IMG/VR virus record: IMGVR_UViG_3300024967_000002
Location: 1 to 44,232 of that record
DNA from: a virus
Reading direction: 5' to 3' (one strand)
DNA length: 44,232 bases
A program made the position numbers and the translations under genes. Positions 22,020 to 35,061 of the stretch are shown here, piece after piece (position 1 is the stretch's first letter; each line of letters begins with the position of its first letter). The notes beneath the pieces are model-generated. The model saw only the letters and a list, made by a program, of their open reading frames with translations. It was not told the DNA's origin and did no database searches.

Positions 22020-22048
22020 ACTATACCTATAGCGGAATAATAAAGCAA
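22020..22048 (-). promoter_or_regulatory. Leftward promoter of ssb operon
   Basis: On the minus strand the -35 is TTGCTT (22043-22048), the spacer is exactly 17 bases and the -10 is TATAGT (22020-22025). The operator palindrome directly abuts the -35 upstream. Confidence 0.82.
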
Positions 22049-22061
22049 TGCATAAATGCAT
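22048..22061. promoter_or_regulatory. ATGCATAAATGCAT operator, ssb-operon promoter
   Basis: Perfect copy (14/14). It shares one base with the -35 of the leftward promoter, so a bound repressor would block RNA polymerase. Confidence 0.8.
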
Positions 22062-22080
22062 AATATATTGCAAATAATAT

Positions 22081-22323
22081 GCTAATACTGGCTAAAAGCC
22101 ACTAGCAACGGCGTTGTAATATACATATATGCATATCATTTTATATTAGCGTCGCTAACTGAAAAACTTAATTAAATCATGGGGTTGGTATATATTAGAG
22201 CGCGAGCCTGGGGGGCATGGGGTCGCAAGTTCGAATCTTGCTGTCCCGACCAAATAAATCAATGACTTACGTCTTTTTATCATTTTTAATATTAGCGAAA
22301 GTATTAGCATATAAGCTAATATT
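22081..22323. other. attP region with repeated TATTAGC arm-type sites
   Basis: This non-coding stretch carries five copies of (G)TATTAGC or its complement: GCTAATACT at 22081, ATATTAGC at 22143, AATATTAGC at 22288, GTATTAGC at 22301 and GCTAATATT at 22315. They flank the tRNA-like core on both sides. This is the layout of integrase arm sites, an inference from position. Confidence 0.6.
22207..22252 (+). other. attP core: 3' half of tRNA-Pro(GGG)
   Basis: From the anticodon loop CTGGGGG (22208-22214) the sequence follows a tRNA exactly: stem GCATG, variable loop GGGTC, T stem GCAAG, T loop TTCGAAT, CTTGC, acceptor TGTCCCG, A, CCA ending at 22252. The 5' half is absent and the bases before the loop do not pair with GCATG. 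It is therefore an attachment core that restores a host tRNA-Pro gene on integration, not a tRNA gene. It lies 70 bases from the integrase stop. Confidence 0.87.
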
Positions 22324-23446
22324 ATTTTTCAGCCATTGGCGGCAATGCCATAACAACCTCGGAGCTTGAAACCTCACGACGTTTGATATATGTGCCAGTC
22401 ATTTGCGCGTCAGTATGGGCCGCAGCGACGCTTAGTTGCTCAATCGTATATCCCGCCTTTTTAGCGTCTGTTAGCGCCTTAGCACGTAAGTCCTTGAGGG
22501 TTGCATTAGCAATTCCGGCTCGTTCGCATGCTCGCGTCCAAGCGGTGCCAACTCCGCGCGTTGCGTATGGCTGACCTTTAATTGTATGAATAACATAAAG
22601 GCCTTTTACTAAGCCGATAGCCTTGGCTCTATCAAGCACAGCCTGGATTGGCGGGCTAATTGGTATTTTGACACTTATGTTGCTAGACTTCTCGGTTTTG
22701 GTTGGCTTGAAGTTTATAAAGCCGTCGCTCACGTCAGACCACTTAAGCAAGCGCACGTCGGTCGTGCGTTGATATAGTAAATACAACAAATCAACATAGC
22801 ATTGCATCATTTCTCCGCTGGGCGTCTTTTTCCCATCCTTGCCAATGGCCAGGGCGTCGCGTATAGCGTGAAATTCTTTATGCTCGATATACCTAGCGCG
22901 GCTAGCCGGACGCTCAACTTGCACCTCGCGGCATGGATTATCTGAGCGGATGCCTTTGCGGCATGCCCAGGCGAAAAAGTCAGAAAATCGAGAGCGGTAT
23001 ATTTGAGCCGTGCGCTGGCCCTCCCATTGGTCGAGAAACTTGGCCACGTCAACCGGCATAATTTGCTCAACATCAAAGTCACTAAATGCCTCAGATATAA
23101 CCTTGCATTTGCGCGATATTTCTTTGGCTCCCTCCTCAAACATGCGGAGGCGTGGCTTATCGGTTGGCTTGTCTTTCTCGCGCTTCTTAAGCACGGCCAG
23201 GCGGTAAGTTTCAAAATAGTCCTTGAAGTCTCCCGCACCGGTGCCGGCCATATTGTGAGTTTGGATAGCATGCGCAAGCTCTCGCGCCTTAAGCTCCCCA
23301 TCATCAACCAGGCAAAGCGAATGCCACTTGGCCACTTTGCCGGTTTTAGGGTTTATGATTGCCTCAGCGCTAAACAGACAAAACCGCTTCCCGCGAATGT
23401 ATATGCGCGAATGGCTGAGGGTCTTATTGGTTTGGCGTTTTCGCAT
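22322..23446 (-). CDS. int: Tyrosine-recombinase integrase
   Basis: A 374-residue protein. Residues 1-60 form an arm-binding type N terminus, 70-165 a core-binding SAM-like domain, and 180-365 the catalytic domain. Visible catalytic residues are Arg227 (LLYQRTTDVRLLKW), a Lys in TKTEKSS near 250-253, Arg321 (LKDLRAK), His344 (AAAHTD) and Tyr353 (GTYIKRR). The His of the usual HxxR box is Lys318 here. The attachment core lies directly beyond its stop. It integrates the phage at tRNA-Pro. Confidence 0.95.
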   Translation of the reverse strand: MRKRQTNKTLSHSRIYIRGKRFCLFSAEAIINPKTGKVAKWHSLCLVDDGELKARELAHAIQTHNMAGTGAGDFKDYFETYRLAVLKKREKDKPTDKPRLRMFEEGAKEISRKCKVISEAFSDFDVEQIMPVDVAKFLDQWEGQRTAQIYRSRFSDFFAWACRKGIRSDNPCREVQVERPASRARYIEHKEFHAIRDALAIGKDGKKTPSGEMMQCYVDLLYLLYQRTTDVRLLKWSDVSDGFINFKPTKTEKSSNISVKIPISPPIQAVLDRAKAIGLVKGLYVIHTIKGQPYATRGVGTAWTRACERAGIANATLKDLRAKALTDAKKAGYTIEQLSVAAAHTDAQMTGTYIKRREVSSSEVVMALPPMAEK

Positions 23447-23693
23447 TTCTAGCTTTCATCATAGCATCGGCCATTTCATAAGACATAGCCGCAACAAGTT
23501 TACAATTATTGCCTTCAAGTCCTGAGTAAGTTAATTCTGCTTGCATTGCCTTGCTTGCAAAAAGGTCTCTCAAGTCAAAGTTATCATAATTTGTAATATT
23601 TTTAACTTCATCGTCATCAAAGCAGCCTTTTTCACAACGACCAACACCGCCATTTACTAAGCAATGCGGGTCTCCTTGTTTGCAAACACTCAT
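23424..23693 (-). CDS. Conserved phage protein, unknown
   Basis: An 89-residue protein. The first 25 residues are Cys-rich (CKQGDPHC...GRCEKGC), suited to metal binding. The rest has FDLRDLFASKAMQAELTYSG...LVAAMSYEMADAMMKAR, a pattern seen in many small phage proteins that lack a function. It overlaps the integrase start by 23 bases. Confidence 0.75.
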   Translation of the reverse strand: MSVCKQGDPHCLVNGGVGRCEKGCFDDDEVKNITNYDNFDLRDLFASKAMQAELTYSGLEGNNCKLVAAMSYEMADAMMKARNAKTPNQ

Positions 23694-23986
23694 TATTTAT
23701 TCACCTTTATTGCATAAACCTGGACAGGCTCAGGGCCAAAATGTGGGTGAGTTATGGTTTTAATTTCATAGCCTAGCCATTTTCGCTCAATTCTTTTCGA
23801 GTGTTCGCTGCGCTTAGGATAGCCAAGCGTCAAAATGATTTTGTCATAATCACGGCCCTCAATGCGTTTTTTCATTCTCGGCGTTATTGCTCGGAACTCC
23901 TCAACCTTCTCGCCGCTTTTAATAGCGTTGAAATATTCACCTTTAAGCGGCAAATATAGTGTTTTGGTAGCTAGCGACTTGCTCAT
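23693..23986 (-). CDS. ASCH-domain-like protein
   Basis: A 97-residue protein with LPLKGEYFNAIKSGEKVEEFRAI at the N terminus, then GRDYDKIILTLGYP and a C-terminal FGPEPVQVYAIKV. This resembles compact ASCH/PUA-like domains that bind RNA or modified nucleotides. It overlaps its neighbours by one and four bases. Role in the phage unknown. Confidence 0.75.
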   Translation of the reverse strand: MSKSLATKTLYLPLKGEYFNAIKSGEKVEEFRAITPRMKKRIEGRDYDKIILTLGYPKRSEHSKRIERKWLGYEIKTITHPHFGPEPVQVYAIKVNK

Positions 23987-24222
23987 TTCCCAGCCCCAAC
24001 CATCTTAACCGCTGGCCGCTCTCTCATTGCGTCTTGCGGCTCTTTTAGAGCGCTAGTGCCGCACTTCTTAGCAACCATTTCCTCCCATGCCTGGGCGGTA
24101 ATAATAACGCCTTTTCGGTCGTGTGGCATATCAACGCCATAGTGACGCTTAAACCAGCGGCATTGTGCCATTGGCATTTCTCGGCCGGTAATTTCGTGCA
24201 ATTGCGTAGGGTTAAGTCTCAC
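23983..24222 (-). CDS. DUF4224 protein
   Basis: A 79-residue protein starting with GTG, preceded by GGAG at 8 bases. The pattern LNPTQLHEITGREMPMAQCRWFKRHYGVDMPHDRKG is typical of DUF4224, a short HTH-like family commonly next to phage integrases. It may bind DNA or assist excision, which is inference. Its GTG overlaps the TGA of the preceding small gene. Confidence 0.8.
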   Translation of the reverse strand: MRLNPTQLHEITGREMPMAQCRWFKRHYGVDMPHDRKGVIITAQAWEEMVAKKCGTSALKEPQDAMRERPAVKMVGAGK

Positions 24223-24377
24223 TTTGTAACTCCTTTTTTAATATTATTGATTGCTGCCTTGCGGCTCGTATAGCAACCTTCACAATAGCCGCGGCGCTTT
24301 CCGTCGCTGGCCGTGATATTTTTAACCGCCGGCCACTTGTGACAGCTTTGGCATAGCTTTTTTACGACTACAGTCAT
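24219..24377 (-). CDS. Zinc-ribbon micro-protein, 52 residues
   Basis: A short frame, MTVVVKKLCQSCHKWPAVK then RRGYCEGCYTSRKAA and a Lys-rich end. Two CxxC pairs spaced by about 22 residues form a zinc ribbon. The start follows the stop of the ATPase gene directly (TAAATG), and the end overlaps the DUF4224 GTG, so it is fully embedded in the operon. Confidence 0.75.
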   Translation of the reverse strand: MTVVVKKLCQSCHKWPAVKNITASDGKRRGYCEGCYTSRKAAINNIKKGVTK

Positions 24378-26132
24378 TTATGCCGCCGCCTCCGTTTTAC
24401 TCATTGCCACGCAATCGCTAATCCAAACGGCTTGCATGCTATCCGGCAATTGAGCCGGGATTGCCTTAAGCGTCCCCATAACAATAACCGTGCTAAGGCT
24501 GGCGCATGTTATATCGTCAAACCAATACAAAGCCTCGCCGCGTCCCTTCAAGTCAAGCACGTCGAAGCGGTCCAGCATAATAATGCCAGCCTTTGAAACG
24601 TGCGCAATCGTCGCCGCAATCATAGCGTCAGCGCGCCATTTTTCACTCTCGGAGCGTAAGCGATACTCTCGGCCCCCAACGATAAGCTCCATGTCCGCAT
24701 CAATTTTAACGGCTGGCCATTCGCTTAAATTTGCCATATTTTCCAAATGCTTGTTAAACGGCGCCAAGGCATCATTAAGCAACTCGGCTGGAATGCCGCT
24801 TGGTGCTAGAGCGTCCGCAACTTCGTCCCAGGCTTTAACGTCTCCGTGGTGTTCTTTTGCGGCCTTAGTCTTTTGCTCCTCGGCCTTATTAGCCGCCAAA
24901 ACTTGCTCTATTTTCTTGGCGTCGTCCGTGTAAAGCTGGCGTTGTGATTTAGCCGTTGCAAGTAACTCCGCTTTTGCGTCAATGTCAGCCAAAAGGCTTT
25001 CCTCGGTTACGCCTTTTGGCTCCGCGGTAACTTCGGCCTCAAGCTCAGCCAGGTTGCGAGCGGCATTATCCGCGGCTTGCAAATCACGCTCTCCATTAGC
25101 GACAGCGCTCTTGAATAGGTCGCGCGCTTTTATATACTCAGGCAAGCGCTCAATATCGTCCTCAGTGCCAACGGCCATGCTCCCAGCCTCTTGCAACTCA
25201 TTGCCAATATTAACAAGCATAACGCCGCAAGCAGGGCATGCACATGCGTTTTGGCTATGCCTTGCTCCTTCGATAGATACAACCTTAAGCTCCCATTCAG
25301 CAAGCTCCGCTTTGTCACGGTTAAGCTTATCTTGAATGCGCGCATATTTACCAGCATGCTCGCGCAACGCTTCTATTTTCTCATTGCGTCTATGCATAAA
25401 TGCATTAGCGTTGACCAAGCTTTGCTCAGTCGCTTTTAGCGCACCCAATTGGCCGCTTAACAATTCAACCAGGTCGTTGGCCTCTTTAACTTTAATCTCG
25501 GCGTTGTCAATCATTGCCTGGTTAAGCTCGTCATGCTTTGGAGCCTCCCAGGTTTCAGCTTTAACGGCGCCGTAAGTTTCGCCGGTAATAGTACGCCAGG
25601 CGGTTTTAGCGTCGCGGGCCTTGGCTTGAGCTTCTTTGTGTGCGGCCTCGAAACCACTAGCAAGGTGCGGGTTTATTTCCTTAATTTCGGTCGCACCAAT
25701 TCCGCGAGACGTAAGCTTTGCGATAATAGCCTGGGGCGTTATTTTAACGCCCATTAGCTTGAATAAAAACGACCGGCGCTCGTTAGCGTCAACACTAGCG
25801 AAACGGCCAGGGTTAAGGCAATACTCCAGCGCAAACGGTAGATTATCCGCGCCAGTTTGTTTGCCCTCCGGCAATAAAATGCCATAGTCGCCCATGTCTC
25901 CGGCCGTGATAATCGCATGGCCAGCGCTCGCGCTATTGTGTAATAGTTTTGCAAAGTCTTTCTTATGTGTAACGCGGTCGCATTGGCTGATTAACGCATG
26001 CTTAACAGCTTCGGCAACGCTAGACTTGCCAGCGCCATTGGCGCCAGCTAGCAATAGGACTGGCTTATTAACCGCAATGCTTGCGCCCTTAATGCCAAGC
26101 ATGTTGCTTATTTCGATATTAGTAATTTTCAT
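24378..26132 (-). CDS. SMC/SbcC-like ATPase
   Basis: A 584-residue protein. Walker A is GANGAGKSS (residues 30-38). A long coiled-coil arm (about 160-450) is interrupted by the zinc-hook motif Cys299-Pro-Ala-Cys302. A signature-like segment RSESEKWRADA precedes the Walker B strand IIMLDRFDVLD (about 516-525). It resembles Rad50/SbcC proteins in miniature and lies in an operon with RecT-like and exonuclease genes, so it likely acts in DNA end processing or recombination. No SbcD-type nuclease gene is adjacent. Confidence 0.85.
   Translation of the reverse strand: MKITNIEISNMLGIKGASIAVNKPVLLLAGANGAGKSSVAEAVKHALISQCDRVTHKKDFAKLLHNSASAGHAIITAGDMGDYGILLPEGKQTGADNLPFALEYCLNPGRFASVDANERRSFLFKLMGVKITPQAIIAKLTSRGIGATEIKEINPHLASGFEAAHKEAQAKARDAKTAWRTITGETYGAVKAETWEAPKHDELNQAMIDNAEIKVKEANDLVELLSGQLGALKATEQSLVNANAFMHRRNEKIEALREHAGKYARIQDKLNRDKAELAEWELKVVSIEGARHSQNACACPACGVMLVNIGNELQEAGSMAVGTEDDIERLPEYIKARDLFKSAVANGERDLQAADNAARNLAELEAEVTAEPKGVTEESLLADIDAKAELLATAKSQRQLYTDDAKKIEQVLAANKAEEQKTKAAKEHHGDVKAWDEVADALAPSGIPAELLNDALAPFNKHLENMANLSEWPAVKIDADMELIVGGREYRLRSESEKWRADAMIAATIAHVSKAGIIMLDRFDVLDLKGRGEALYWFDDITCASLSTVIVMGTLKAIPAQLPDSMQAVWISDCVAMSKTEAAA
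25392..25405. promoter_or_regulatory. ATGCATAAATGCAT copy inside the ATPase gene
   Basis: A perfect 14/14 copy within the coding region (encoding part of NAFMHRR). No promoter is evident next to it. It could be a roadblock or looping site, or fortuitous. Confidence 0.5.
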
Positions 26133-26160
26133 TTTATGCTCCTAAGTTGTTCGTGTGTTA

Positions 26161-26189
26161 ACTATACCGATAGAGATATTGCAATGCAA
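26161..26189 (-). promoter_or_regulatory. Leftward promoter of the ATPase-int segment
   Basis: On the minus strand the -35 is TTGCAT (26184-26189), the spacer 17 bases, the -10 TATAGT (26161-26166), identical to that of the ssb operon. The operator lies 7 bases upstream of the -35. Confidence 0.8.
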
Positions 26190-26196
26190 GAAAAAT

Positions 26197-26210
26197 ATGC
26201 ATAAATGCAT
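26197..26210. promoter_or_regulatory. ATGCATAAATGCAT operator, ATPase promoter
   Basis: A perfect 14/14 copy just upstream of the -35. Its last base is part of the stop codon of the 31-residue frame. Confidence 0.78.
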
Positions 26211-26305
26211 TAATTAAGTCGCAACAACTCACGCGAGCCGTCGCCTTCTTTACGTGTGTTGATATGGCTTAATGTTGCGCGGCCGGTAAAATTAAACTTG
26301 CTCAT
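26210..26305 (-). pseudogene. 31-residue remnant or micro-protein
   Basis: Reads MSKFNFTGRATLSHINTRKEG and ends in SRELLRLN. The ribosome site TTTAGGAG before the ATG is intact. The start resembles longer phage recombination-region proteins that begin with a TGxATLxxxNxRKEG pattern, as I recall them. It stops where the operator and promoter begin, so it may be the surviving head of a gene cut off when this promoter region arrived. A genuine micro-protein is the alternative. Confidence 0.45.
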
Positions 26306-26314
26306 TTAATACTC

Positions 26315-26464
26315 CTAAATTAACCCAGCATATTGACGTGAGACAATCTCGCTTTGGCCTTCGTCTCTATACGATTTATAAATCTCATACGCCTTTAAGC
26401 ACTCCTCGCGCTCTAAATATGGCGAGTGCTTTCTAACCCAGGTAACAATTTCGTCGTCAGTCAT
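26315..26464 (-). CDS. Small acidic hypothetical protein, 49 residues
   Basis: Reads MTDDEIVTWVRKHSPYLERE, then a helical Tyr/Lys segment ending RQYAGLI. It starts with the site CTTAGGAG at 6 bases spacing and follows an intercistronic hairpin. It is charged and helical with no known domain. Confidence 0.65.
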   Translation of the reverse strand: MTDDEIVTWVRKHSPYLEREECLKAYEIYKSYRDEGQSEIVSRQYAGLI

Positions 26465-26479
26465 TTAATACTCCTAAGC

Positions 26480-26493
26480 GGGGCCGAAGCCCC
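26480..26493 (-). other. Intercistronic UUCG hairpin
   Basis: On the minus strand GGGGC-TTCG-GCCCC, a very stable tetraloop stem, lies between the RecT-like stop and the next ribosome site. There is no T run, so it is more likely an mRNA-processing or stability element than a terminator. Confidence 0.6.
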
Positions 26494-26498
26494 TTAAT

Positions 26499-27506
26499 TT
26501 ATTCAACGTTAAGGTTAGGGCGCTCGCGGCGTTGCGTTGCCTCTTGCACTCTATCGGCCTCATTTAACTCGTCTAAAAATATGTCGGCTTGAGATTTAAC
26601 TGGCTCGGCCTCAATAACGGTTTCGTCCGGTTCCGGCGCTGACGGCTCTTGCTCGTCGATAGGCTCCACAACCTTTTCAACTGGCGCGGCTTTCTCTTTT
26701 GCCTTGTCGGTTGCTGACGGCACCTTGCTCGCTTTACCTGGACGGCTTGGCGCGTCGGTCGCTACAAACTGGCCGCTCTCGTCGCGCTCGGTTTCAATAA
26801 CGTCCTGCAACTCCTCGGTCGTTTGTAAGCCCATAAGCAAGTCCGGCGTATGTAATTTTCCAAAGAAGCTCGTCGCACGATAATGCAACATAACCTCCGG
26901 CATGGTTTGCCATTTGCTTCCGTTCTTAGTAATCCAGCCCTCGTCGATTGCCATTTGCATTGACACAATAGGGCCTTTGATAATGTCGCCGGTTGCCTTG
27001 TCTTTCGCCCATGCGTAACAGGTGCGGTGCGTCACTTGTATCGTTTTGTCTTTGCTTTCCTTTTTACCGTTCACCCAGGCAACGGCGTTGTAAGTCACGG
27101 CCTCAGTTTGGCCAGGCTCAGAAAGCTCAAAGCGCAACGGAGAAAAGCGGCCGCTTGCATTGATGCTGGCCGCAACAAACTGAGCGGACCATGAAGGGCG
27201 ACCCTCGACAATGTAAAGGTTTTGCATAACCATAAGCACGTCGGCACCTAAGCGCTGGCTCATGTTTAAGGCAATCACGCAATTTGGAATTGCGCTTGGG
27301 TTGTCCTCAGTGCCTACAACTTTGCCATAGTCCTTAAGCTCTTTTTGAGCGCGGTATTGCACTGGCACCAGGGTCGAGCTTGATAGCATTTTTGCTTGTC
27401 GTTGCATAAGCTCGAAGCTTTGAGAGCTACCGAAGCCAGGCAACACGACGGCTGTATTAGCCTCGCGCATTGATAAATTTTCGCGGATTGTTTCAACGTT
27501 TGACAT
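26499..27506 (-). CDS. RecT-like single-strand annealing protein
   Basis: A 335-residue protein. The core (residues 60-220) contains IPNCVIALNMSQRLGADVLMVMQNLYIVEGRPSWSAQF, a RecT-type pattern, and a second block with KTIQVTHRTCYAWAKDKATGD. The C-terminal 100 residues are acidic and Pro/Glu-rich with no fold. It would anneal complementary strands after resection. The exonuclease gene sits directly upstream in the same operon. The start follows CTTAGGAG. Confidence 0.85.
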   Translation of the reverse strand: MSNVETIRENLSMREANTAVVLPGFGSSQSFELMQRQAKMLSSSTLVPVQYRAQKELKDYGKVVGTEDNPSAIPNCVIALNMSQRLGADVLMVMQNLYIVEGRPSWSAQFVAASINASGRFSPLRFELSEPGQTEAVTYNAVAWVNGKKESKDKTIQVTHRTCYAWAKDKATGDIIKGPIVSMQMAIDEGWITKNGSKWQTMPEVMLHYRATSFFGKLHTPDLLMGLQTTEELQDVIETERDESGQFVATDAPSRPGKASKVPSATDKAKEKAAPVEKVVEPIDEQEPSAPEPDETVIEAEPVKSQADIFLDELNEADRVQEATQRRERPNLNVE

Positions 27507-27515
27507 GACTAGCTC

Positions 27516-28460
27516 CTAAGCTTCAAATAGAAACGGACGGGCGCCCGCTTTTGGTTTTGTAAATTGTTGGTAGATTGCTGGATTAGCGGCTTTGAATGCG
27601 TCCTTATCAAAGCTTTCTCCGTCCTTGTTATTTTTCCATGTTGCTAGTGTTTTGCCGTTATGGCGAAGCTCCTCAGCGTCCGCAAGCATTGCCTTAAGGT
27701 TACTTTCAAATATCGCTTTGTTATCCTCAGCCGCTTTTAAATCAGCGCGAGCCTTGCCAAGTCGCGCATATAAATCAAGCATTGCATTATCAGCCTCGAC
27801 AACTTTGCCTTTGCTTGCACGGCGATAAATCAACTCAGCGTCGCCGGCATTAACTGGCGTCGGCAATTGTTTCGCCTGGACGCCTTGCCATACCTTGCCG
27901 CATTCCTCAACCATGTACTCAACAAGCTCGTCGTTGCGTTGTATAACGTAAATCTCAATGGGGACAGTGCCTTTGGTTAAGAATTGAACAAGCGCGGCCT
28001 CGTTAACGAAGCAAATCGGAATGTCAGCCTGTACGGCACCAGTGACGGCCATTTGAGCCATACATTGCCATAAACGCTCGACCGGCACTTGGTCCGTGCC
28101 AGGCTCGCCCCAGCGGCTTCTATCAAACATACTGAAAGCCTTAGCCTCAACAACGCGAGGCGCGTCGTCAAACGTGGCCAGGCCGTCAAGGTGACAACCA
28201 AACCAACTGAATTGCGGGTGCAACATTGTGTCAGGTGAAAGGACCAGGCTTTGCGGCTTCTCTTGCTCTTGGTAGGCTTGCATAATTGGCGCCTCCAGGA
28301 TATTACCAAGCTGGACGCTTGGCACGTTGTCCAGGTCCGGGCCTTCAATCTCGCCCATTTTCTGCAAGGCAATCTCGACGCCTTTTCCCGTCATGATATA
28401 AGCCGCGTCTGATGCGAATATGCCAGCGTTGCGGCGTTGTCGTTGAGCTTCGGTTATCAT
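27516..28460 (-). CDS. YqaJ-type viral recombination exonuclease
   Basis: A 314-residue protein. The YqaJ core includes RNAGIFASDAAYIMTGKG, then LGNILEAPIMQAYQ, WFGCHLDGLA with the metal-binding Asp, and RVVEAKAF with the Glu-x-Lys of the PD-(D/E)xK fold, followed by a Gln motif (RLWQCMAQMAVTG). The C-terminal third is a helical region. It would digest one strand of double-stranded DNA for the RecT-like partner. It starts in an ATGA overlap with the gene upstream. Confidence 0.9.
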   Translation of the reverse strand: MITEAQRQRRNAGIFASDAAYIMTGKGVEIALQKMGEIEGPDLDNVPSVQLGNILEAPIMQAYQEQEKPQSLVLSPDTMLHPQFSWFGCHLDGLATFDDAPRVVEAKAFSMFDRSRWGEPGTDQVPVERLWQCMAQMAVTGAVQADIPICFVNEAALVQFLTKGTVPIEIYVIQRNDELVEYMVEECGKVWQGVQAKQLPTPVNAGDAELIYRRASKGKVVEADNAMLDLYARLGKARADLKAAEDNKAIFESNLKAMLADAEELRHNGKTLATWKNNKDGESFDKDAFKAANPAIYQQFTKPKAGARPFLFEA

Positions 28461-28624
28461 TGCGAAATCTCCCCATTAAAGCCAGTGCGTCCTTGGCTTG
28501 CCCAATTGGTTGAGATTGCAACCTTGTTGTCGTTGCGGATTGAGTTTTTAACGCGAGCGCGTTGGTGCGCTAAGCTTTCGCCACGTATAGCGCGCATCAT
28601 ATTAATGATTTTGCGGTTTTTCAT
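28457..28624 (-). CDS. Small basic hypothetical protein, 55 residues
   Basis: Reads MKNRKIINMMRAIRGESLAH with a Arg/Asn-rich middle and the ending TGFNGEISQ. It is basic and helical at the N terminus. Its start and stop both lie in ATGA overlaps with neighbours, so translation is coupled to the exonuclease. Confidence 0.65.
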   Translation of the reverse strand: MKNRKIINMMRAIRGESLAHQRARVKNSIRNDNKVAISTNWASQGRTGFNGEISQ

Positions 28625-28770
28625 GCGGCACCTCCTACAAAGTAAGAAGTCAGCAATGCGGCCAAGGCTAGGCCAATTGATAGCAAAAAATAGATATTCT
28701 CTTGCTTTGTGGTTTTAACGCTGGCAATTAAGTCCTTGCGAGATTGCCCAGCTAAGTCGATGTTTTTCAT
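28621..28770 (-). CDS. Small single-span membrane protein, 49 residues
   Basis: Begins MKNIDLAGQSRKDLIASVKT and carries one membrane segment (about residues 26-46, IYFLLSIGLALAALLTSYF). It is the first gene of the recombination operon, with CTTAGGAG 7 bases before the ATG. A membrane peptide at the head of a recombination operon is unexpected; function unknown. Confidence 0.68.
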   Translation of the reverse strand: MKNIDLAGQSRKDLIASVKTTKQENIYFLLSIGLALAALLTSYFVGGAA

Positions 28771-28787
28771 TATTAGCTCCTAAGTTA

Positions 28788-28801
28788 ATGCATAAATGCA
28801 T
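28788..28801. promoter_or_regulatory. ATGCATAAATGCAT operator, recombination promoter (site 1)
   Basis: A perfect 14/14 copy, just downstream of the -10 (28808-28813), across the transcription start region. Confidence 0.8.
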
Positions 28802-28807
28802 AGGAGA

Positions 28808-28836
28808 ATAATATGCGTAAATGTTTAACAAAGCAA
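28808..28836 (-). promoter_or_regulatory. Leftward promoter of the recombination operon
   Basis: On the minus strand -35 TTGCTT (28831-28836), 17-base spacer, -10 TATTAT (28808-28813). Three operator-like elements lie at the start, in the spacer and upstream of the -35. Confidence 0.82.
28813..28826. promoter_or_regulatory. Operator-like element in spacer (site 2)
   Basis: ATGCGTAAATGTTT matches the consensus at 11 of 14 positions and lies between -10 and -35. Confidence 0.5.
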
Positions 28837-28843
28837 CTAAAAA

Positions 28844-28857
28844 ATGCATAAAAGCAT
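28844..28857. promoter_or_regulatory. Operator-like element upstream of -35 (site 3)
   Basis: ATGCATAAAAGCAT matches the consensus at 13 of 14 positions, 7 bases upstream of the -35. Confidence 0.68.
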
Positions 28858-28907
28858 TAAAATAATTCAAAAATGTTTAATATATTTCATAATATATACA
28901 TAAACGA

Positions 28908-29231
28908 TTATTTTATTGGGATTATTTGAGCGCTTGTTTTGTCAATTTTGTTGAAAAAATCAAGCATTTTATTGCGGGCAACATTGCCAGCCTCCAATAA
29001 TATTGGCACATGCTCCGGCTCAACGTTAACCATTTGGGTTTCAGTTTGTCCGTTTGGTAAAACTGCAATATAAGCAAGGGCAACCGGTGCATTTTCACCT
29101 TGATTATTTGCTAGCATTAAGAGTAATTGTTTGATGATTGCCTGGCGTTCGGCAATATTTGCGGCCGCTTCGGCGTCGCATTGACTAAGGTTTGCGCTTT
29201 CTAAGGCTTTCTTTTTTGTCTGAGGTGTCAT
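28908..29231 (-). CDS. Hypothetical protein co-transcribed with repressor
   Basis: A 107-residue protein, helical at the N terminus (LESANLSQCDAEAAANIAERQAIIKQLLLML) with a beta-rich middle (VALAYIAVLPNGQTETQMVNV). It overlaps the end of the repressor gene by 47 bases, so it is expressed in the lysogen. Prophage-expressed genes here often serve immunity or exclusion. No family recognised. Confidence 0.68.
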   Translation of the reverse strand: MTPQTKKKALESANLSQCDAEAAANIAERQAIIKQLLLMLANNQGENAPVALAYIAVLPNGQTETQMVNVEPEHVPILLEAGNVARNKMLDFFNKIDKTSAQIIPIK

Positions 29232-29688
29232 AGCTAAGGGTTTTATTAGAGTTGTTGCTTAATGGACGCTTGGCGGCTTTTAAAGCCTTGCTTTCAATGT
29301 CCGGCGGTAAGACGTTAGATTTAATATTTAAGTTCAACGTTTTTTTACTGTTATCGTCCTGGCATTGCTCAATCGTAAATCTTATAAACTGATATATCCT
29401 ATCTTGCTCAGAGGTTGGCAATTTTTCAACCTCATAAAACAATTCATTAAGATTGTTGACGCTTTTTTTATATCCAACAATAACCCAAGGCTCAACACGG
29501 AAAGCATTAGCAATGTTCTCAATGTTGTCAGCCGTTAGCGCAACCTCCGCCTTAAGTATGCGGCCAATCGTCGGCTGAGTAACGCCGGCCGCGTCAGCGA
29601 GAGCGGCTTGCGTTTGCAACAACATACTGGCGCCCATTAGCTCCCGTATGCTTGCCGCAATGATTTTTCTGAGTTTAGGTTCAAACAT
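29185..29688 (-). CDS. CI-like repressor, XRE HTH
   Basis: A 167-residue protein. An XRE HTH spans about residues 24-62 (TQAALADAAGVTQPTIGRILKAEVALTADNIENIANAF). The C terminus (65-167) has VNNLNELFYEVEKLPTSEQDRIYQFIRF and a basic end. There is no Ser/Lys LexA-type protease domain, so induction would not be by RecA autocleavage. No ribosome site is seen; a promoter ends at the ATG, suggesting leaderless mRNA. It likely binds the ATGCATAAATGCAT operators. Confidence 0.85.
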   Translation of the reverse strand: MFEPKLRKIIAASIRELMGASMLLQTQAALADAAGVTQPTIGRILKAEVALTADNIENIANAFRVEPWVIVGYKKSVNNLNELFYEVEKLPTSEQDRIYQFIRFTIEQCQDDNSKKTLNLNIKSNVLPPDIESKALKAAKRPLSNNSNKTLSYDTSDKKESLRKRKP

Positions 29689-29694
29689 AACGCG

Positions 29695-29723
29695 AATATA
29701 TCACTAAATTATTCATTTGTGCA
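29695..29723 (-). promoter_or_regulatory. Repressor promoter, leaderless transcript
   Basis: On the minus strand -35 TGCACA (29718-29723), 17-base spacer, -10 TATATT (29695-29700). The -10 ends 6 bases before the ATG, placing the start at or beside the A. The -35 overlaps an operator half. Confidence 0.65.
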
Positions 29724-29724
29724 T
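29711..29724. promoter_or_regulatory. Operator-like element at repressor promoter
   Basis: ATTCATTTGTGCAT matches the consensus at 12 of 14 positions and overlaps the repressor -35; it could give autoregulation. Confidence 0.65.
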
Positions 29725-29758
29725 TATTTATTTAATTAAAATATTTTTAACAAAATGA

Positions 29759-29787
29759 TTGCACGAATATGCATTTATGCATAAAAT
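29759..29787 (+). promoter_or_regulatory. Rightward early promoter (PR-like)
   Basis: -35 TTGCAC (29759-29764), 17-base spacer, -10 TAAAAT (29782-29787). The spacer contains the full operator. Confidence 0.82.
29769..29782. promoter_or_regulatory. ATGCATTTATGCAT operator inside PR-like spacer
   Basis: A perfect 14/14 copy that fits between -35 and -10 (its last base is the first of the -10). It is the key site of the lysis-lysogeny switch. Confidence 0.85.
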
Positions 29788-29817
29788 GATTATCACATTT
29801 AAACGAAGGGTCCAAAC

Positions 29818-30069
29818 ATGGAAAAAAACGAAAAGATTTACGACTACCTTAAGCGCAAGCTCAACGCGCCTGAGTTCAACCGAAAGCTCTCAAAAATAGC
29901 AAAAGACTTAAACCTTAATCAATCGACCATTAGCAGATTATCACGCGGCGAAATTCTAAGCCCTGGCCTGGACGTTGTGCAACCGTTACTTGATTATTTC
30001 CTTGCTAGTGAGAAAGTAAAAAAACCACGTATCGCAAAGGCTGAGAAAAATGAGCAAGCTCATAGTTAA
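29818..30069 (+). CDS. Cro-like HTH protein
   Basis: An 83-residue protein divergent from the repressor. HTH at about residues 22-45 (KLSKIAKDLNLNQSTISRLSRGE) and a Lys-rich C terminus. The position on the PR-like transcript fits a Cro role. The site is GAAGGGTCCAAAC before ATG 29818. The following gene starts inside its last 20 bases. Confidence 0.82.
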   Translation: MEKNEKIYDYLKRKLNAPEFNRKLSKIAKDLNLNQSTISRLSRGEILSPGLDVVQPLLDYFLASEKVKKPRIAKAEKNEQAHS

Positions 30070-30763
30070 AGGGTGGGTGGCTTTTCAGCACTATAAGGAC
30101 CGCTCGCCGCCCTGGATTAAGTTGCATAAAACATTATTAGATAATTACGAATATCAATGCTTGCCTCTTGCTAGCAGAGCGCTAGCGCCAATGATTTGGT
30201 TGCTAGCAAGCGAGAATTTAGACGGTAGCATTGACGCTGACCCTCGCAAGTTGGCATTTAGGTTGAGAGCGAGCGTTGACGAGATTATTGCAGGACTTAA
30301 CCCTTTGATTGAAAACGGTTTTCTAACGTCTGATAGCGGTTTGCTAGCGGAGTGCAAGCAAGTTGCTATGCTAGAGACAGAGACAGAGGCATATAAACAA
30401 GAGACAGAGACAAAGACAGAGAGAGAGGCAGAAGCTCCAAAAAAAGAAAAATCAACAAAAGGCTCTCGACTACCTGGCGACATGGTTCTTTCAAATGATT
30501 GGTATTTGGAGGCTATCAAAATCCGTGCTGATTGGTCTAGCGATAAAGCGTTGGCAGTATTTAGCGAATTTTATGATTATTGGATTGCTCAGCCAGGGGA
30601 GAAGGGTCGAAAAACAGATTGGCTTGCAACATGGAGGAATTGGTGCCGACGTGAAAAGGGATTTAATAATAGCCAAGCTCGACCCGCTAAGTTCGACCCG
30701 GTTGCTTTCGTTAATGGTGCAAACGAGGAGGCTCGAAATGTCACAACTATCGACCACGAATAA
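30050..30763 (+). CDS. Replication initiator, O/DnaT-like
   Basis: A 237-residue protein. The N-terminal part (residues 15-110) is a winged-helix type with PPWIKLHKTLLDNYEYQCL and LASENLDGSIDADPRKLAFRL. A charged linker with TETEAYKQETETKTERE separates a C-terminal domain DMVLSNDWYLEAIKIRADWSSDKALAVFSEFYDYW, resembling the DnaT DNA-binding domain. It would load the replication machinery at the phage origin. The P-like gene follows by overlap. Confidence 0.78.
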   Translation: MSKLIVKGWVAFQHYKDRSPPWIKLHKTLLDNYEYQCLPLASRALAPMIWLLASENLDGSIDADPRKLAFRLRASVDEIIAGLNPLIENGFLTSDSGLLAECKQVAMLETETEAYKQETETKTEREAEAPKKEKSTKGSRLPGDMVLSNDWYLEAIKIRADWSSDKALAVFSEFYDYWIAQPGEKGRKTDWLATWRNWCRREKGFNNSQARPAKFDPVAFVNGANEEARNVTTIDHE

Positions 30764-31394
30764 AAACCCGTTCTTAGTGCCAAGGCCTAAAGCTGACGGA
30801 GCGGCCAAGCCTTTGTCTATTATGGACCGATTGTTTAACAAGCTCGACGGGCATTATCCGCATAAGTGGCGCTCAGCGTTCTCAAGTGAAGCCGCAATTC
30901 AAAACTGGCGGGACAGTTGGAGCGAGGGTTTTATTGAGGAGGGATTAAACCCTCACGAAATTAAGCGCGGGATTGTTGCATGCCGTAAGTTATACGATTG
31001 GCCTCCGAGCCTTAAGGAATTTATAAGCGCATGTCGCCCTCCGGTAGATTTTGAGGCGGCATATTTTGAGGCGGTCGTGCAATTGCGTCGCCGTGAAATG
31101 GGCCAGGACGTTTGGAGCAATAAAGCGATTTATTGGGCGGCGGTAAGGATTGGCCAGTTTGACTTAACCGCTATGCCATACGACCGCATTAAGTCACGCT
31201 GGTCGAATGAGTTGACGTTTTCGCTTGCCGCGTTAGATTTGCCGGACGTACCGCCAAGGCTTCAAGCATTGCCAGCGCCAGGTAAAACAACCACAACGCA
31301 AGAGGTTGGCCGGGAGCGTATGAGTGAAATTATGGAGCGATTTTTTTCGTCCAAGGATATGCATAAATGTATAAATGAGGTTGAAAATGAATGA
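30738..31394 (+). CDS. Replication protein P-like
   Basis: A 218-residue protein. ATG 30738 is chosen because GAGGAGG stands 6 bases upstream; longer frames upstream lack a site. The core FNKLDGHYPHKWRSAFSSEAAIQNWRDSWSEGF, the YDWPPSLKEFISACRP block and the AVRIGQFDLTAMPYDRIKSRW block match lambda P-like helicase loaders. It would recruit the host replicative helicase. The C terminus contains an operator-like site. Confidence 0.82.
   Translation: MSQLSTTNKNPFLVPRPKADGAAKPLSIMDRLFNKLDGHYPHKWRSAFSSEAAIQNWRDSWSEGFIEEGLNPHEIKRGIVACRKLYDWPPSLKEFISACRPPVDFEAAYFEAVVQLRRREMGQDVWSNKAIYWAAVRIGQFDLTAMPYDRIKSRWSNELTFSLAALDLPDVPPRLQALPAPGKTTTTQEVGRERMSEIMERFFSSKDMHKCINEVENE
31359..31372. promoter_or_regulatory. 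Operator-like element at the end of the P-like gene
   Basis: ATGCATAAATGTAT, 13 of 14 matches, 15 bases before the start of the small HTH gene. Confidence 0.6.
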
Positions 31395-31605
31395 AATTGA
31401 CTGGCAAAAAGTAACTTTAAGCATTAGAGCAAATTACAAAAATCTATCACAAACAGCCAAAGAGGTTGGGAGTGATTGGGCGCATTTAAATAGATTAGCA
31501 AGAGGCGAGACGAAAGAGCCAAAGTTTTCAGTTGGATTGAAGTTGTTAGACATTCATTTTGACTATTGCAAACAAAATCACAATAAAAACGGAGTTATGA
31601 AATGA
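31387..31605 (+). CDS. Small XRE-like HTH protein
   Basis: A 72-residue protein, ATG 31387 after GAGGTTGAAA. HTH-like segment NLSQTAKEVGSDWAHLNRLARGE. It overlaps the end of the P-like gene and the next gene start. A methyltransferase control protein or another phage regulator are both possible. It is AT-rich like the methyltransferase that follows, so both may have arrived together. Confidence 0.72.
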   Translation: MNEIDWQKVTLSIRANYKNLSQTAKEVGSDWAHLNRLARGETKEPKFSVGLKLLDIHFDYCKQNHNKNGVMK

Positions 31606-32711
31606 AACACAAATTTCCATATAAATGGACACTAAAAGACGCAAACTTTACAAAAGACAAAGGAAAAGTTTTTAGTTGCTTTGCATGTGGGGGGGGGTCA
31701 ACAATGGGGTATAAACTGGCTGGCTTTGATGTTATTGGGTGCAATGAGATTGACCCTAAAATGATTGAAGCCTACCGAGAAAATCATAAACCTAAATATT
31801 CATTTTTAGAGCCAATTCAAACATTCAAGTTGCGAGACGATTTGCCGGCTGAATTATACGACTTGGATATTTTAGACGGTTCGCCTCCATGCTCTAGTTT
31901 TTCAATGGCTGGCAATCGTGGAGACGATTGGGGAAAAGAGAAAAAGTTTAGAGAGGGGCAAGCTGAGCAAGTATTAGACACGCTATTTTTTGACTTTATC
32001 GACTTGGCTGAAAAGCTACAACCTAAAATAGTTGTAGCTGAAAATGTCAAGGGATTATTACTTGGTGACGCTAGAGCATACGTTAATCGAATAAACGAAG
32101 CTTTTGACAAAGCTGGCTATTATGTCCAGCATTTTCTATTTGATGCTTCAAAAATGGGAGTTCCGCAACGCCGAGAGCGCGTTTTTTTCTTGGCTATGCG
32201 CAAGGACTTAGCTGAGCCATTTTTAGAAAGCTTGGATATGTTTACAGTGGCACCGCGCATTAGATTAAATTTTAATGAGCCTGAGATTGCATGTAAAAAT
32301 ATACTAGACGAAAACGCAGAAAGAAAAGAGCTTGGAAATTCAGTTAAAAAAATATATGACCAAAGGCTTGATACTGAGTGGTGTTTAGGTGAAACGGCCG
32401 AGAGAGTTGGAAAGCGTAGCCATTTTAACTATATGGTTATAAATCCTGAGAGAGCTAGCTATACGGTAACAGGTGCAGGAAATTTAATACATAACAACGG
32501 ATATTTAACAGAGCAAGAGTTTTGTGAAATTGGGAGCTATCCTAAAGATTATAATTTTTTGAATAACAAGCCAGAGTATCTTATAGGCATGAGTGTCCCG
32601 CCAGTTATGACCGCTCAAATTGCCTCGCAAATATCAGAGCAATGGCTTGCAAAAATAAATGCGTCTATAAGCACGTCTAACGATATGCATTTATGCATGA
32701 AAGCGGCGTAA
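31602..32711 (+). CDS. DNA (cytosine-5) methyltransferase, solitary
   Basis: A 369-residue protein. Motif I FSCFACGGGSTMG (about 24-36), motif IV GSPPCSSFS with the catalytic Cys, motif VI VVAENVKG, motif VIII PQRRERVFFL and C-terminal motifs IX/X (GMSVPPVMTAQIASQ). No restriction endonuclease gene is beside it, which suggests self-protection against host restriction. Codons 30-32 are GGG GGG GGG, giving a 9-G run that is prone to slippage. It is AT-rich relative to the late genes. Confidence 0.92.
   Translation: MKHKFPYKWTLKDANFTKDKGKVFSCFACGGGSTMGYKLAGFDVIGCNEIDPKMIEAYRENHKPKYSFLEPIQTFKLRDDLPAELYDLDILDGSPPCSSFSMAGNRGDDWGKEKKFREGQAEQVLDTLFFDFIDLAEKLQPKIVVAENVKGLLLGDARAYVNRINEAFDKAGYYVQHFLFDASKMGVPQRRERVFFLAMRKDLAEPFLESLDMFTVAPRIRLNFNEPEIACKNILDENAERKELGNSVKKIYDQRLDTEWCLGETAERVGKRSHFNYMVINPERASYTVTGAGNLIHNNGYLTEQEFCEIGSYPKDYNFLNNKPEYLIGMSVPPVMTAQIASQISEQWLAKINASISTSNDMHLCMKAA
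31689..31697 (+). repeat. Poly-G(9) tract in methyltransferase motif I
   Basis: Nine consecutive G encode Gly30-Gly32 in motif I. Loss or gain of one G would shift the frame at the start of the protein and switch it off. Confidence 0.9.
32685..32698. promoter_or_regulatory. ATGCATTTATGCAT copy at the end of the methyltransferase gene
   Basis: A perfect 14/14 copy 15 bases before the next gene start, encoding part of the final residues (MHLCM). Confidence 0.65.
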
Positions 32712-32712
32712 A

Positions 32713-32946
32713 ATGCAAAGTAGAAAATCATCATTTATAGAAGCTTTGCTTAATACGATTATCGGTTATTTTGTTAGCTTTGCCGGCCAGCTTTTAATCT
32801 ACCCGGCATTTGGTGCGCATTTTACGATTATGGACAATGTTTATATTGGCCTTTTGTTCACAGTTTTATCGCTTGTTAGGAGTTATGTTTTACGTCGTTA
32901 CTTCAACGGCAGGCTTCACAAAATAGCGGTTGAGTTATCGGCGTGA
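32713..32946 (+). CDS. DUF7220-like membrane protein
   Basis: A 77-residue protein with two membrane segments (about 12-33 and 45-63). The pattern FIEALLNTIIGYFVSFAGQLLIYPAFG...NVYIGLLFTVLSLVRSYVLRRYF matches small phage membrane proteins of the DUF7220 type. Function unknown. It overlaps the next gene by 4 bases. Confidence 0.78.
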   Translation: MQSRKSSFIEALLNTIIGYFVSFAGQLLIYPAFGAHFTIMDNVYIGLLFTVLSLVRSYVLRRYFNGRLHKIAVELSA

Positions 32947-33140
32947 CATATAAGACGCCAGTTTTAACGGCCGACCAAATGGCTGAGTTTGTGGCCGCAA
33001 GCCCATACAAAGATTATCGAATTAAGTGCATTGCTTTATTTCGAGAGATACACGGCGACGAGTACGCTGACGCAGTAAAAAACAAAGTTTTAGTAATTTT
33101 TAACGGGAGAAATAAAAATGGAAAACGACAACGAGGTTAA
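32943..33140 (+). CDS. Small hypothetical phage protein
   Basis: A 65-residue protein starting with GTG in a 4-base overlap. LTADQMAEFVAASPYKDYRIKCIALFREIHGDEYADAVKN is a helical pattern like small phage proteins that carry a 'RRxYLxxVExxxGxxxADxL' motif. The last 23 bases overlap the next gene. Role unknown. Confidence 0.68.
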   Translation: MTYKTPVLTADQMAEFVAASPYKDYRIKCIALFREIHGDEYADAVKNKVLVIFNGRNKNGKRQRG

Positions 33141-33513
33141 TTGCAGTATTGCAACACTCAGATTTTTAGACAACAACAAGCACTTGTTTCGGCCTGGCTT
33201 TAGTGCCTGGGTAGCTCAGAATTGGGCGATATACTTGGCATTTGAGCAAGAGGCTTACAAGGTGATTAAAAAAGGCTTTACGCATTACAGCGCCAGGACA
33301 ATTGGCGAGTATTTGCGACATGAGACAAAGACCCGCGAGGACGGGGCGCAATACAAGCTCAACGACCATTTATGGCCGGACATGGCCAGGATCTTTGCAA
33401 TACGACACCCTGAGCATAATGCGCTTTTTGAGTTTCGCGGCTCAAGCCTTCGCTCAGTGCCTAAGCACGTCCAGGATTATACAAAAATGCATAACGAGGA
33501 GCTTGCGGCATGA
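33118..33513 (+). CDS. Conserved phage protein, early operon
   Basis: A 131-residue protein. The pattern FSAWVAQNWAIYLAFEQEAYKVIKKGFTHYSARTIGEYLRHE followed by WPDMARIFAIRHPEHNALFEFR is widespread in phage replication regions, often next to a Holliday-junction type nuclease. Site GGGAGAAATAAA before ATG 33118. No catalytic motif visible. Confidence 0.78.
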   Translation: MENDNEVNCSIATLRFLDNNKHLFRPGFSAWVAQNWAIYLAFEQEAYKVIKKGFTHYSARTIGEYLRHETKTREDGAQYKLNDHLWPDMARIFAIRHPEHNALFEFRGSSLRSVPKHVQDYTKMHNEELAA

Positions 33514-33866
33514 TAACAAACGCTAAAAAAGGCATGTATGCCCTTGGTAGATTAAAAGTTGGCCAAATGAATAAAACAGAGGCCGCCTATGAAATTTATT
33601 TGGAAAACCTAAAGCATAACGGTGAGGTTGCTTGGTACAAATTCGAGGGCATGAAGTTCCGCTTAGCCGATAACGCATTTTACACGCCCGACTTCGCGGT
33701 TATGTTGACGAGCGGAGATATGCAAATGCACGAAGTAAAAGGGTTTTGGCAAGATGATGCCCGCGTGAAAATAAAAGTGGCGGCGGACCTTTACCCATTC
33801 GACTTTATTGCAGTTAAGCCCAAGCCTAAAAAATCCGGCGGCGGTTGGGAAAGAGAGGAATTTTAA
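33510..33866 (+). CDS. DUF1064 nuclease-like protein
   Basis: A 118-residue protein with the DUF1064/PD-(D/E)xK pattern: KTEAAYEIYLENLKHNGEVAWYKFEGMKFRLADN, then YTPDFAVM with the Asp, and MHEVKGFW with Glu-x-Lys, followed by ARVKIKVAADLYP. This suggests a junction-resolving or debranching nuclease acting on replication intermediates. It overlaps the previous gene by 4 bases. Confidence 0.82.
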   Translation: MITNAKKGMYALGRLKVGQMNKTEAAYEIYLENLKHNGEVAWYKFEGMKFRLADNAFYTPDFAVMLTSGDMQMHEVKGFWQDDARVKIKVAADLYPFDFIAVKPKPKKSGGGWEREEF

Positions 33867-34079
33867 ATGGCCGCGCTACCCTCTCAATTTTACAAAGACC
33901 CAAGCGAGCTAGTTGACGCAATACGACGTAACGAGTGCGACGGTTGCGCTAGCGAGTTGGTTGTTAGTTTCAATTATGAAAAGACCCGCTCATGCGAGCG
34001 CGGCAGTAAACACAGCGACAACGGTGGGACACGTTGCAACTTTTACAAAAAAACGGAGGCAAAAAATGGCATTAAGTAA
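33867..34079 (+). CDS. Small Cys-rich phage protein
   Basis: A 70-residue protein with CDGC near residue 25, then RSCERGSKHSD and RCNFYK, giving four Cys and a His that could hold zinc. The N terminus is an acidic helix. It starts at the base after the DUF1064 stop. Function unknown. Confidence 0.72.
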   Translation: MAALPSQFYKDPSELVDAIRRNECDGCASELVVSFNYEKTRSCERGSKHSDNGGTRCNFYKKTEAKNGIK

Positions 34080-34200
34080 TTGGCAGGTTTTCGGTTTAGG
34101 TTTTTTCATTGGAGTTAATTTTGGCATTGTTATCCTAGCGATATTTATTGCCAATAAAAAGCTCGACGATGAAATTGACGAGGTGCTTGGCCGTGAATAA
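34066..34200 (+). CDS. Small single-span membrane protein, 44 residues
   Basis: ATG 34066 follows ACGGAGGCAAAAA. One membrane segment (about residues 8-28, VFGLGFFIGVNFGIVILAIFI) and a short acidic tail. It overlaps the preceding gene by 14 bases and the next gene by 8 bases, in other frames. Confidence 0.72.
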   Translation: MALSNWQVFGLGFFIGVNFGIVILAIFIANKKLDDEIDEVLGRE

Positions 34201-34801
34201 TCCAATATTTCAAAATACAAGCCAAGCGATACATTTCAGCTTTTTAATCGAAGCTTACGAGCCAGGGTCGGAGAGTGCAACCGGCAAAATGATGCGGAGG
34301 CACATGGAGGAAATGGGGTTGGCCACAGGAGAGCGCGAGGAAAGTACGATTGACTTTGGCGGACTTACGGCCCTGGAAATACGCGGACAAGCCGCAATGA
34401 TACGCTCAGCCGTTAACAGCCATTTAAACCAGGTCGAAGCCTGGGCAATTAAGGCCAAATTTGGCACCACTAAGACCGTCGAGAAACTTGGCACCCCCAA
34501 GGCTTATGTGTTTAGTGCTGAGAGAATTGACGCAATGCGCAACATATCCAGGCATATCGCTCCGGTATTTATGCACCACTCAGTTAGCGAAAAATCCGTT
34601 TTGTGGCTAGTGGCCAAGGCATGCGGAGAGATTGAAGCCGTGAGGCCCACGTTTCGAGATATTGAGGAGCTTGGACATGGTAGCAAAAGCACACTTTGCC
34701 GCGTATATCCTCAGCTTAAGAAAATGCTCAAAAGTTTGGAAAATCGCGCAATCGACCAATTAACGCCGTTATTCATACGCGAGGGCATTGTGCCAGGCTA
34801 A
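34193..34801 (+). CDS. Putative late-gene regulator
   Basis: A 202-residue protein; GTG 34193 is preferred since homologous-looking sequence starts there (NNPIFQNTSQAIHFSFLIEA). The middle has STIDFGGLTALEIRGQAAMIRSAV. The C-terminal 70 residues have an HTH/sigma-4-like layout (SVLWLVAKACGEI...TFRDIEELGHGSKSTLCRVYPQLKKMLKSLENRA). Related-looking proteins end the early operon before terminase genes. It may act as an antiterminator or activator of the late promoter. Confidence 0.7.
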   Translation: MNNPIFQNTSQAIHFSFLIEAYEPGSESATGKMMRRHMEEMGLATGEREESTIDFGGLTALEIRGQAAMIRSAVNSHLNQVEAWAIKAKFGTTKTVEKLGTPKAYVFSAERIDAMRNISRHIAPVFMHHSVSEKSVLWLVAKACGEIEAVRPTFRDIEELGHGSKSTLCRVYPQLKKMLKSLENRAIDQLTPLFIREGIVPG

Positions 34802-34806
34802 AGAAT

Positions 34807-34820
34807 ATGCATTTATGTTT
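34807..34820. promoter_or_regulatory. Operator-like element upstream of late promoter (site 1)
   Basis: ATGCATTTATGTTT, 12 of 14 matches, 20 bases before the second site. Confidence 0.6.
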
Positions 34821-34826
34821 TAAAAT

Positions 34827-34840
34827 ATTCATAAATGTAT
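34827..34840. promoter_or_regulatory. Operator-like element at late promoter -35 (site 2)
   Basis: ATTCATAAATGTAT, 12 of 14 matches; its last base is the first base of the -35 TTGACA. Confidence 0.62.
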
Positions 34841-34869
34841 TGACATGCCTGGGACAGAAAGAGTAAATT
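34840..34869 (+). promoter_or_regulatory. Late promoter
   Basis: -35 TTGACA (34840-34845), 18-base spacer, -10 TAAATT (34864-34869). It precedes a 235-base leader and the terminase genes. Two operator-like elements lie immediately upstream. Confidence 0.75.
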
Positions 34870-34898
34870 ATTTCTATTCTAGCGAAAATTGTCACTTA

Positions 34899-34925
34899 AG
34901 CCAGCCTTAACCGGTTGGCTTTTTG
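34899..34925 (+). terminator. Terminator 1 in late leader
   Basis: AGCCAGCC, loop TTAACC, GGTTGGCT followed by TTTTT (one G-T pair). It lies about 30 bases after the late promoter -10. Confidence 0.72.
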
Positions 34926-34943
34926 CATTTTAGCTTAACCGGT

Positions 34944-35021: not shown

Positions 35022-35061
35022 TTCAGCATATTGCTAGTTTGACATGACTGGCAATCTCCTC

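Follow-up and report, generated by a model that had tools for sequence, protein, structure and literature searches.

Scattered 14-bp inverted repeats as a predicted operator network of a CI-like repressor in an uncultured phage genome

The viral record IMGVR_UViG_3300024967_000002 (IMG/VR; 44,232 nucleotides), taken whole and called here the window, carries scattered copies of a 14-bp inverted repeat, ATGCATAAATGCAT, which probably constitute a dispersed operator network of the CI-like phage repressor, with roadblock or looping at the copies lying inside genes (probability roughly 0.78). The window has an identical 127-bp repeat at both ends (1-127 and 44106-44232) and is therefore probably a complete temperate-phage genome. 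The two proteins most directly concerned contain helix-turn-helix (HTH) motifs and are encoded divergently with predicted operators between them, as in the lambda-type layout:

29185..29688, minus strand: CI-like repressor, 167 aa, with an HTH_3 domain and, C-terminally, a segment resembling SPC32H Rep; presumed to bind the sites
29818..30069, plus strand: Cro-like HTH protein, 83 aa; possible second binder

Exact copies of the 14-mer were located at 22048, 25392, 26197, 28788, 29769, and 32685, which are the six that an earlier note, made by a model from the sequence alone, had claimed. The near copies of that note were likewise found where it had put them, at 28813 (three mismatches), 28844 (one), 29711 (two), 31359 (one), 34807 (two), and 34827 (two). 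In total, the window contained 32 matches with at most three mismatches vs. 8.2 ± 3.0 in dinucleotide shuffles, and none of 100 shuffles reached 32. The position-matrix scan that the note had proposed as a check was carried out with a symmetric matrix whose training set was the sites of the window and of four related genomes; since the matrix was trained on the scored sites themselves, shuffles are the relevant comparison. Ten sites scored at least 15 bits (0.2 expected) and 12 at least 13 bits (0.4 expected), and all of the latter fell within 22048-34840. The matrix added two sites that the note had missed, at 22121-22134 (19.1 bits) and 33479-33492 (15.4 bits), whereas 28813 remained under the threshold and 29711 was weak (11.9 bits), as a sequence near chance level. 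No strong site was found in the structural genes, in agreement with the absence of full copies reported before, the top score there being 11.6 bits at 11926. The half-site ATGCAT alone was not enriched in the window (21 found vs. 17 expected); enrichment concerned only the paired arrangement.

Seven related viral contigs (G001-G007), found through RecE, CI, and integrase searches, displayed the same gene order as the window. No matches came from searching the phages collection and viral contigs with the CI protein alone, whereas the RecE neighbourhood search succeeded; RecE and integrase scans of genome contigs yielded no informative host. The degenerate form ATSCATWWATGSAT, with at most one mismatch, occurred 5-12 times per genome in these contigs, and the reversed-pattern control gave zero. 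Sites recurred at PR, recE, the SbcC promoter, mid-SbcC, the CI start, the end of the P gene, the end of a 131-aa gene, the late promoter, and the ssb/attP region wherever the contig covers them, so that the comparison with relatives, also suggested earlier, revealed conservation at matching promoters. Because relatives carry ATCCAT-NN-ATGGAT (in G002 and G004, together with mixed forms), the site appears to be an ordinary inverted repeat in which the self-palindromic ATGCAT half is incidental. The unusual binding geometry that had been envisaged was thus not borne out; a direct-repeat reading was rejected, neither direct nor everted arrangements being found in the two genomes tested.

The association of the site with the CI family was obtained from DNA. 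A protein-blind scan of viral contigs, with the site joined to TTGACA as the query, returned 25 stretches, from which 24 loci were examined; the control set was made up of at least 119 loci retrieved by the exact bare 14-mer, which is unspecific. Among the matches listed, a CI homologue was encoded at 10 of the 24 loci and at 0 of 119 control loci. The positive loci comprised three near relatives of the window and seven distant phages with 58-63% guanine plus cytosine (GC). As the first CI profile contained GC-rich members, the search was repeated with window-group sequences only, and this profile detected all 10 loci; the window CI alone detected five of the seven GC-rich ones (27-35% identity). 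No homologue of the window Cro was detected at the distant phages retrieved by the site. The site is thus tied to the CI family, because a search blind to proteins retrieves CI homologues and its controls retrieve none. Those of the GC-rich loci that were read presented CI, a following gene, and then a promoter with the site. Four GC-rich contigs taken whole (37-49 kb) held only two or three sites each within two mismatches; in three of them all sites lay beside CI, and in G011 the perfect one did so and a weaker one was at 1000. The earlier proposal that the repressor, perhaps along with Cro, controls early, recombination, and late transcription through one site type agrees with the shared, conserved sites and with this tie, the choice of binder being a deduction from association.

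Variation was also seen in the protein. The residue of the CI recognition helix between T-I/V and R was Gly with the ATGCAT half-site (window and G007), and Ser, Asn, or Gln where ATCCAT occurs, a covariation that can be taken as a lead in a set of only five lineages. Another GC-rich locus (L156 8471-9601) presented ATGCATTAATGCAT sites beside a different repressor-like protein of 232 aa, LexA/CI-type by eye; a similar site may there serve an unrelated repressor.

The sites near promoters of the window were the following:

22048..22061: predicted operator, perfect; adjoins the leftward ssb-operon promoter and is also the left member of the attP pair
26197..26210: predicted operator, perfect; 5' of the leftward SbcC-int promoter
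28788..28801: predicted operator, perfect; at the presumed transcription start of the leftward recE-recT promoter
28813..28826: weak site in the recE-recT promoter spacer
28844..28857: predicted operator; immediately 5' of the recE-recT -35
29711..29724: weak site resembling an operator, within the CI leader
29769..29782: predicted operator, perfect; inside the 17-bp spacer of the rightward promoter PR
34807..34820: predicted operator; upstream of the late promoter
34827..34840: predicted operator; its last base is common to the -35 of the late promoter

A consensus promoter scan gave no excess over shuffles (29 vs. 27.3) and detected only the late promoter among the five, so the promoter assignments rest on conserved geometry. 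The -35 of the leftward ssb-operon promoter (22048-22043, TTGCTT; 17-bp spacer; -10 at 22025-22020, TATAGT) overlaps the last base of its operator, and this arrangement was near-identical in G002, G004, and G007, with an overlap of two bases in the last. At the SbcC-int promoter (-35 at 26189-26184, TTGCAT; -10 at 26166-26161, TATAGT) the operator is flush with the -35 in G002 and G004; the window and G001 have it about 8 bp farther upstream. The PR site (-35 at 29759-29764, TTGCAC; -10 at 29782-29787, TAAAAT) was located within a 17-bp spacer in both the window and G002, and relatives have, overlapping the CI start, a better site than that of the window at 29711 (L125 5619-5632). The late site abuts the -35 (34840-34845, TTGACA; 18-bp spacer; -10 at 34864-34869, TAAATT) identically in G002, G005, and G007. 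The recE-recT promoter has its -35 at 28836-28831 (TTGCTT) and its -10 at 28813-28808 (TATTAT). In two relatives, operators at the recE promoter overlapped with an 8-bp shift, giving three half-sites in a row (L125 6508-6529 and L124 1713-1734), the middle one of which could serve either operator. Around the late promoter (34148-35081), a gene for an uncharacterised 217-aa protein is followed by the promoter, terminator-like hairpins (34898 and 35062), and the terminase gene, an order that resembles Q-type antitermination.

A single site type links the early, recombination, ssb, SbcC-int, and late promoters, as the earlier note had stated in saying that it controls every main promoter; that description fell short in that the network also extends into genes and attP. 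Four strong sites are internal to genes and none of them is at a recognisable promoter, which makes this more than a promoter-operator set:

24378..26132, minus strand: SbcC-like ATPase gene, holding site 25392
25392..25405: predicted operator, perfect; midway through the SbcC-like ATPase gene; retained in G001, G002, G004, and G007
31359..31372: predicted operator; final codons of the lambda-P-like gene, ahead of the following start
32685..32698: predicted operator, perfect; final codons of a cytosine methyltransferase gene, 15 bp short of the following gene
33479..33492: predicted operator; final codons of the 131-aa gene, 18 bp short of the following gene; retained in G002-G007

The last three thus share a position in the final codons of an open reading frame, shortly 5' of the following start. 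We consider it rather improbable, if the likeliest of the alternatives, that these internal copies are due to chance or to the encoded protein, with operators confined to promoters. The P-end site would fit such an origin, since it is readily produced by the protein sequence (chance under synonymous-codon sampling 0.04-0.29 per genome, and 0.22-0.29 in two of five genomes), and it was kept in G002, G004, and G005, with a site in the last codons of some gene at the matching place in G007. The methyltransferase-end site had no counterpart in relatives, where no homologue of that gene was matched either. However, the mid-SbcC and 131-end sites persist despite residue changes: at mid-SbcC the residues vary (NAFMH, NANMH, NAFMD, NALMD, and NAYLH) and the DNA site of 20-23 bits stays, with a synonymous-codon chance of 0.006-0.04 per genome, and for the 131-end site this chance was 0.014-0.045 (per-genome values were not multiplied because relatives are not independent). 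Moreover, shuffles give 0.2 sites of such strength per whole window, as compared to the 10 seen.

The remaining strong site belongs to a pair at the putative attachment region:

22121..22134: predicted operator in an attP arm, between putative integrase arm-type repeats GCTAATA/TATTAGC
22079..22325: putative attP, with arm-type repeats, a core equal to a tRNA gene 3' end (...GTTCGAATCTTGCTGTCCCGACCA, ending at about 22252), and right-arm repeats
22322..23446, minus strand: tyrosine integrase of the SbcC-int operon

Starting from the promoter -10, this region presents an operator, an arm-type repeat, a second operator (+73), the end of the core (+196/197), and repeats of the right arm, the latter at +242, +253, and +267 where present; distances were equal within 1 bp in four genomes. 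Spacing of the 22048/22121 pair was exactly 73 bp (about seven helical turns) in all four, despite only 37-54% identity to the window in the DNA between the two operators. Such fixed spacing could reflect integrase spacing alone or the binding of a regulator in attP. That the repressor (or Cro) also directly controls site-specific recombination through this operator pair, which flanks a putative integrase arm site, is a tentative suggestion that we regard as holding perhaps one chance in four; if true, one regulator with a single site type would join transcription silencing, elongation roadblock, and the gating of integration and excision. A candidate Xis, an HTH protein of 63 aa that weakly matches excisionases, is encoded at 20362-20553 between the ssb gene and the ssb-operon promoter.

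As in lambda, 434, and P22, CI and Cro are divergent around an operator region and an operator lies in the PR spacer; operators of 434 are 14 bp long, as here. Unlike in those phages, sites reach ssb, integration, late, and gene-internal places, and CI displayed no peptidase-domain match: the Pfam scan listed HTH families only, PHROG matches mainly covered the HTH part, and the S24 self-cleaving peptidase of lambda-type switches was not found. CI is thus probably not cleaved in the manner of lambda CI. Dispersed operators of one phage repressor are also represented by the P1 C1 operators, the phiC31 CIB sites, and the SPbeta SPBRE elements.

In the Protein Data Bank (PDB), the CI profile matched 5d50/5d4z (SPC32H Rep; E about 1e-12; profile positions 4-111, Rep residues 91-198), a relationship covering an HTH-like and a C-terminal helical segment. 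The N-terminal domain of Rep (the first ~90 residues) is absent from CI, which begins at about Rep residue 90; by sequence, CI is a relative of part of Rep and not a member with the full architecture. A tblastn search of the window gave no good homologue of the antirepressor Ant (best E 0.036). The likeness to Uetakevirus (SPC32H, epsilon15, phiV10, and SPN1S) extends to rep, a divergent small gene, replication genes, and the recE/recT neighbourhood. Four Uetakevirus genomes (L174-L177; phiV10, SPC32H, Tyrion, and BUCT711) carried 8-10 perfect copies of TTACC-N5-GGTAA vs. 0-0.1 expected, near terS/late, recE, rep/cro, the antirepressor, and the P end, several of them forming pairs at a distance of about 62 bp (in the neighbourhood of recE and beyond the P gene). 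This palindrome, a probable dispersed operator set of Rep repressors, is scattered as the window site is, with different sequence and spacing.

The stoperators of Cluster A mycobacteriophages (L5, Bxb1) are many genome-wide sites for one repressor, some of them off promoters, whose motif drifts with the repressor; they are asymmetric and mostly in one orientation (PMC6550527, PMC9283540), and the repressor was reported to be monomeric (PMC9283540). Sites 25392, 31359, and 33479 and their counterparts are similarly conserved away from promoters, where repressor binding is presumed. In contrast to stoperators, the window sites are inverted repeats, are fewer (about 12), and go with an HTH_3/Rep-like repressor.

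The network would operate as follows. A CI dimer would read the inverted repeat AT(G/C)CAT-NN-ATG(G/C)AT, and in the lysogen CI dimers, perhaps paired as tetramers, would silence all main promoters: PR through the spacer site, the recE-recT promoter through the sites at its start and near its -35, and the ssb, SbcC-int, and late promoters through sites that adjoin the -35 or lie a short way upstream of it. The gene-internal sites (mid-SbcC and the ends of the P, methyltransferase, and 131-aa genes) would most likely be elongation roadblocks or DNA-loop partners that silence leaky transcription. The attP pair probably brings the ssb promoter, and perhaps attP itself, under CI control, and the Cro-like protein may use the same sites. 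We infer CI binding, repression, and roadblock or looping from the sites, their conservation, and their association with the CI family. A further gene could intervene, since its product could modulate CI:

28908..29231, minus strand: 107-aa protein, whose gene overlaps the end of the CI gene; present in G002-G006 and, as fragments, in G001

This protein gave no match to the gene in the same place of the GC-rich phages.

Several observations weigh against CI as the repressor of such a network. The 24 loci were partly redundant, the GC-rich set amounting to about three lineages. According to the domain order of Rep, which runs from N-terminal DNA binding through middle dimerisation to C-terminal tetramerisation (PMC9986798), the matched residues 91-198 should belong to the latter two parts and not to the DNA-binding one; DNA binding was assigned to the HTH of CI because it is the only HTH found in this protein. 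The AlphaFold model of CI was poor (mean predicted local distance difference test score, pLDDT, 47) and unfit for fold search. Operators at about -42 (ssb and late) or -50 (SbcC-int) could also activate. Finally, in G001 (L124 739-1326) the CI gene is without its N-terminal HTH part, Cro is intact, and sites remain; this state parallels the 5'-deleted repressor of the lytic mycobacteriophage D29 (PMC6550527, PMC9283540) and fits either a recent loss of lysogeny, as in D29, or use of the sites by Cro.

The G001 case would also be expected if the Cro-like protein, and not CI, were the main binder and the network turned down early genes in the lytic cycle, a reading to which we give only a small probability. 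Window Cro and CI have a common recognition-helix pattern, Q-x-T-I-x-R, and both read QATISRI in G002. However, it was CI homologues, and not Cro homologues, that appeared at the distant phages retrieved by the site, and the late and ssb sites are more easily understood as a means of silencing in the lysogen.

About equally doubtful is a dual regulator, with CI or Cro activating ssb and late from about -42 and the PR and recE sites repressing. The ssb and late operators are centred there and have one base in common with the -35 in several genomes, and lambda CI at OR2 occupies the classical activator position touching sigma. Nevertheless, the SbcC-int site shifts by about 8 bp among genomes, a displacement seldom compatible with activation, the -35 of the late promoter matches the consensus, and a repressor that maintains lysogeny would hardly be expected to switch on late genes. 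Use of the sites by a host or structural factor (nucleoid protein, partition, or methylation guard) in place of a phage regulator, as their presence in genes and attP might suggest, is very improbable, since half-site position 3 changes from G to C between phage groups and the site accompanies the CI family across very different GC contents, being there nearly confined to the neighbourhood of CI.

Dispersed CI control, if correct, would allow a repressor and its operator to be recognised from the sequence of uncultured phages, and both partners vary in nature: between groups the half-site passes from ATGCAT to ATCCAT, and the CI recognition helix changes too. Phages of the epsilon15/SPC32H/phiV10 type show a similar layout with another palindrome. 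The conserved operator-like sites in coding sequence and attP offer a testable case of roadblock, looping, or recombination control.

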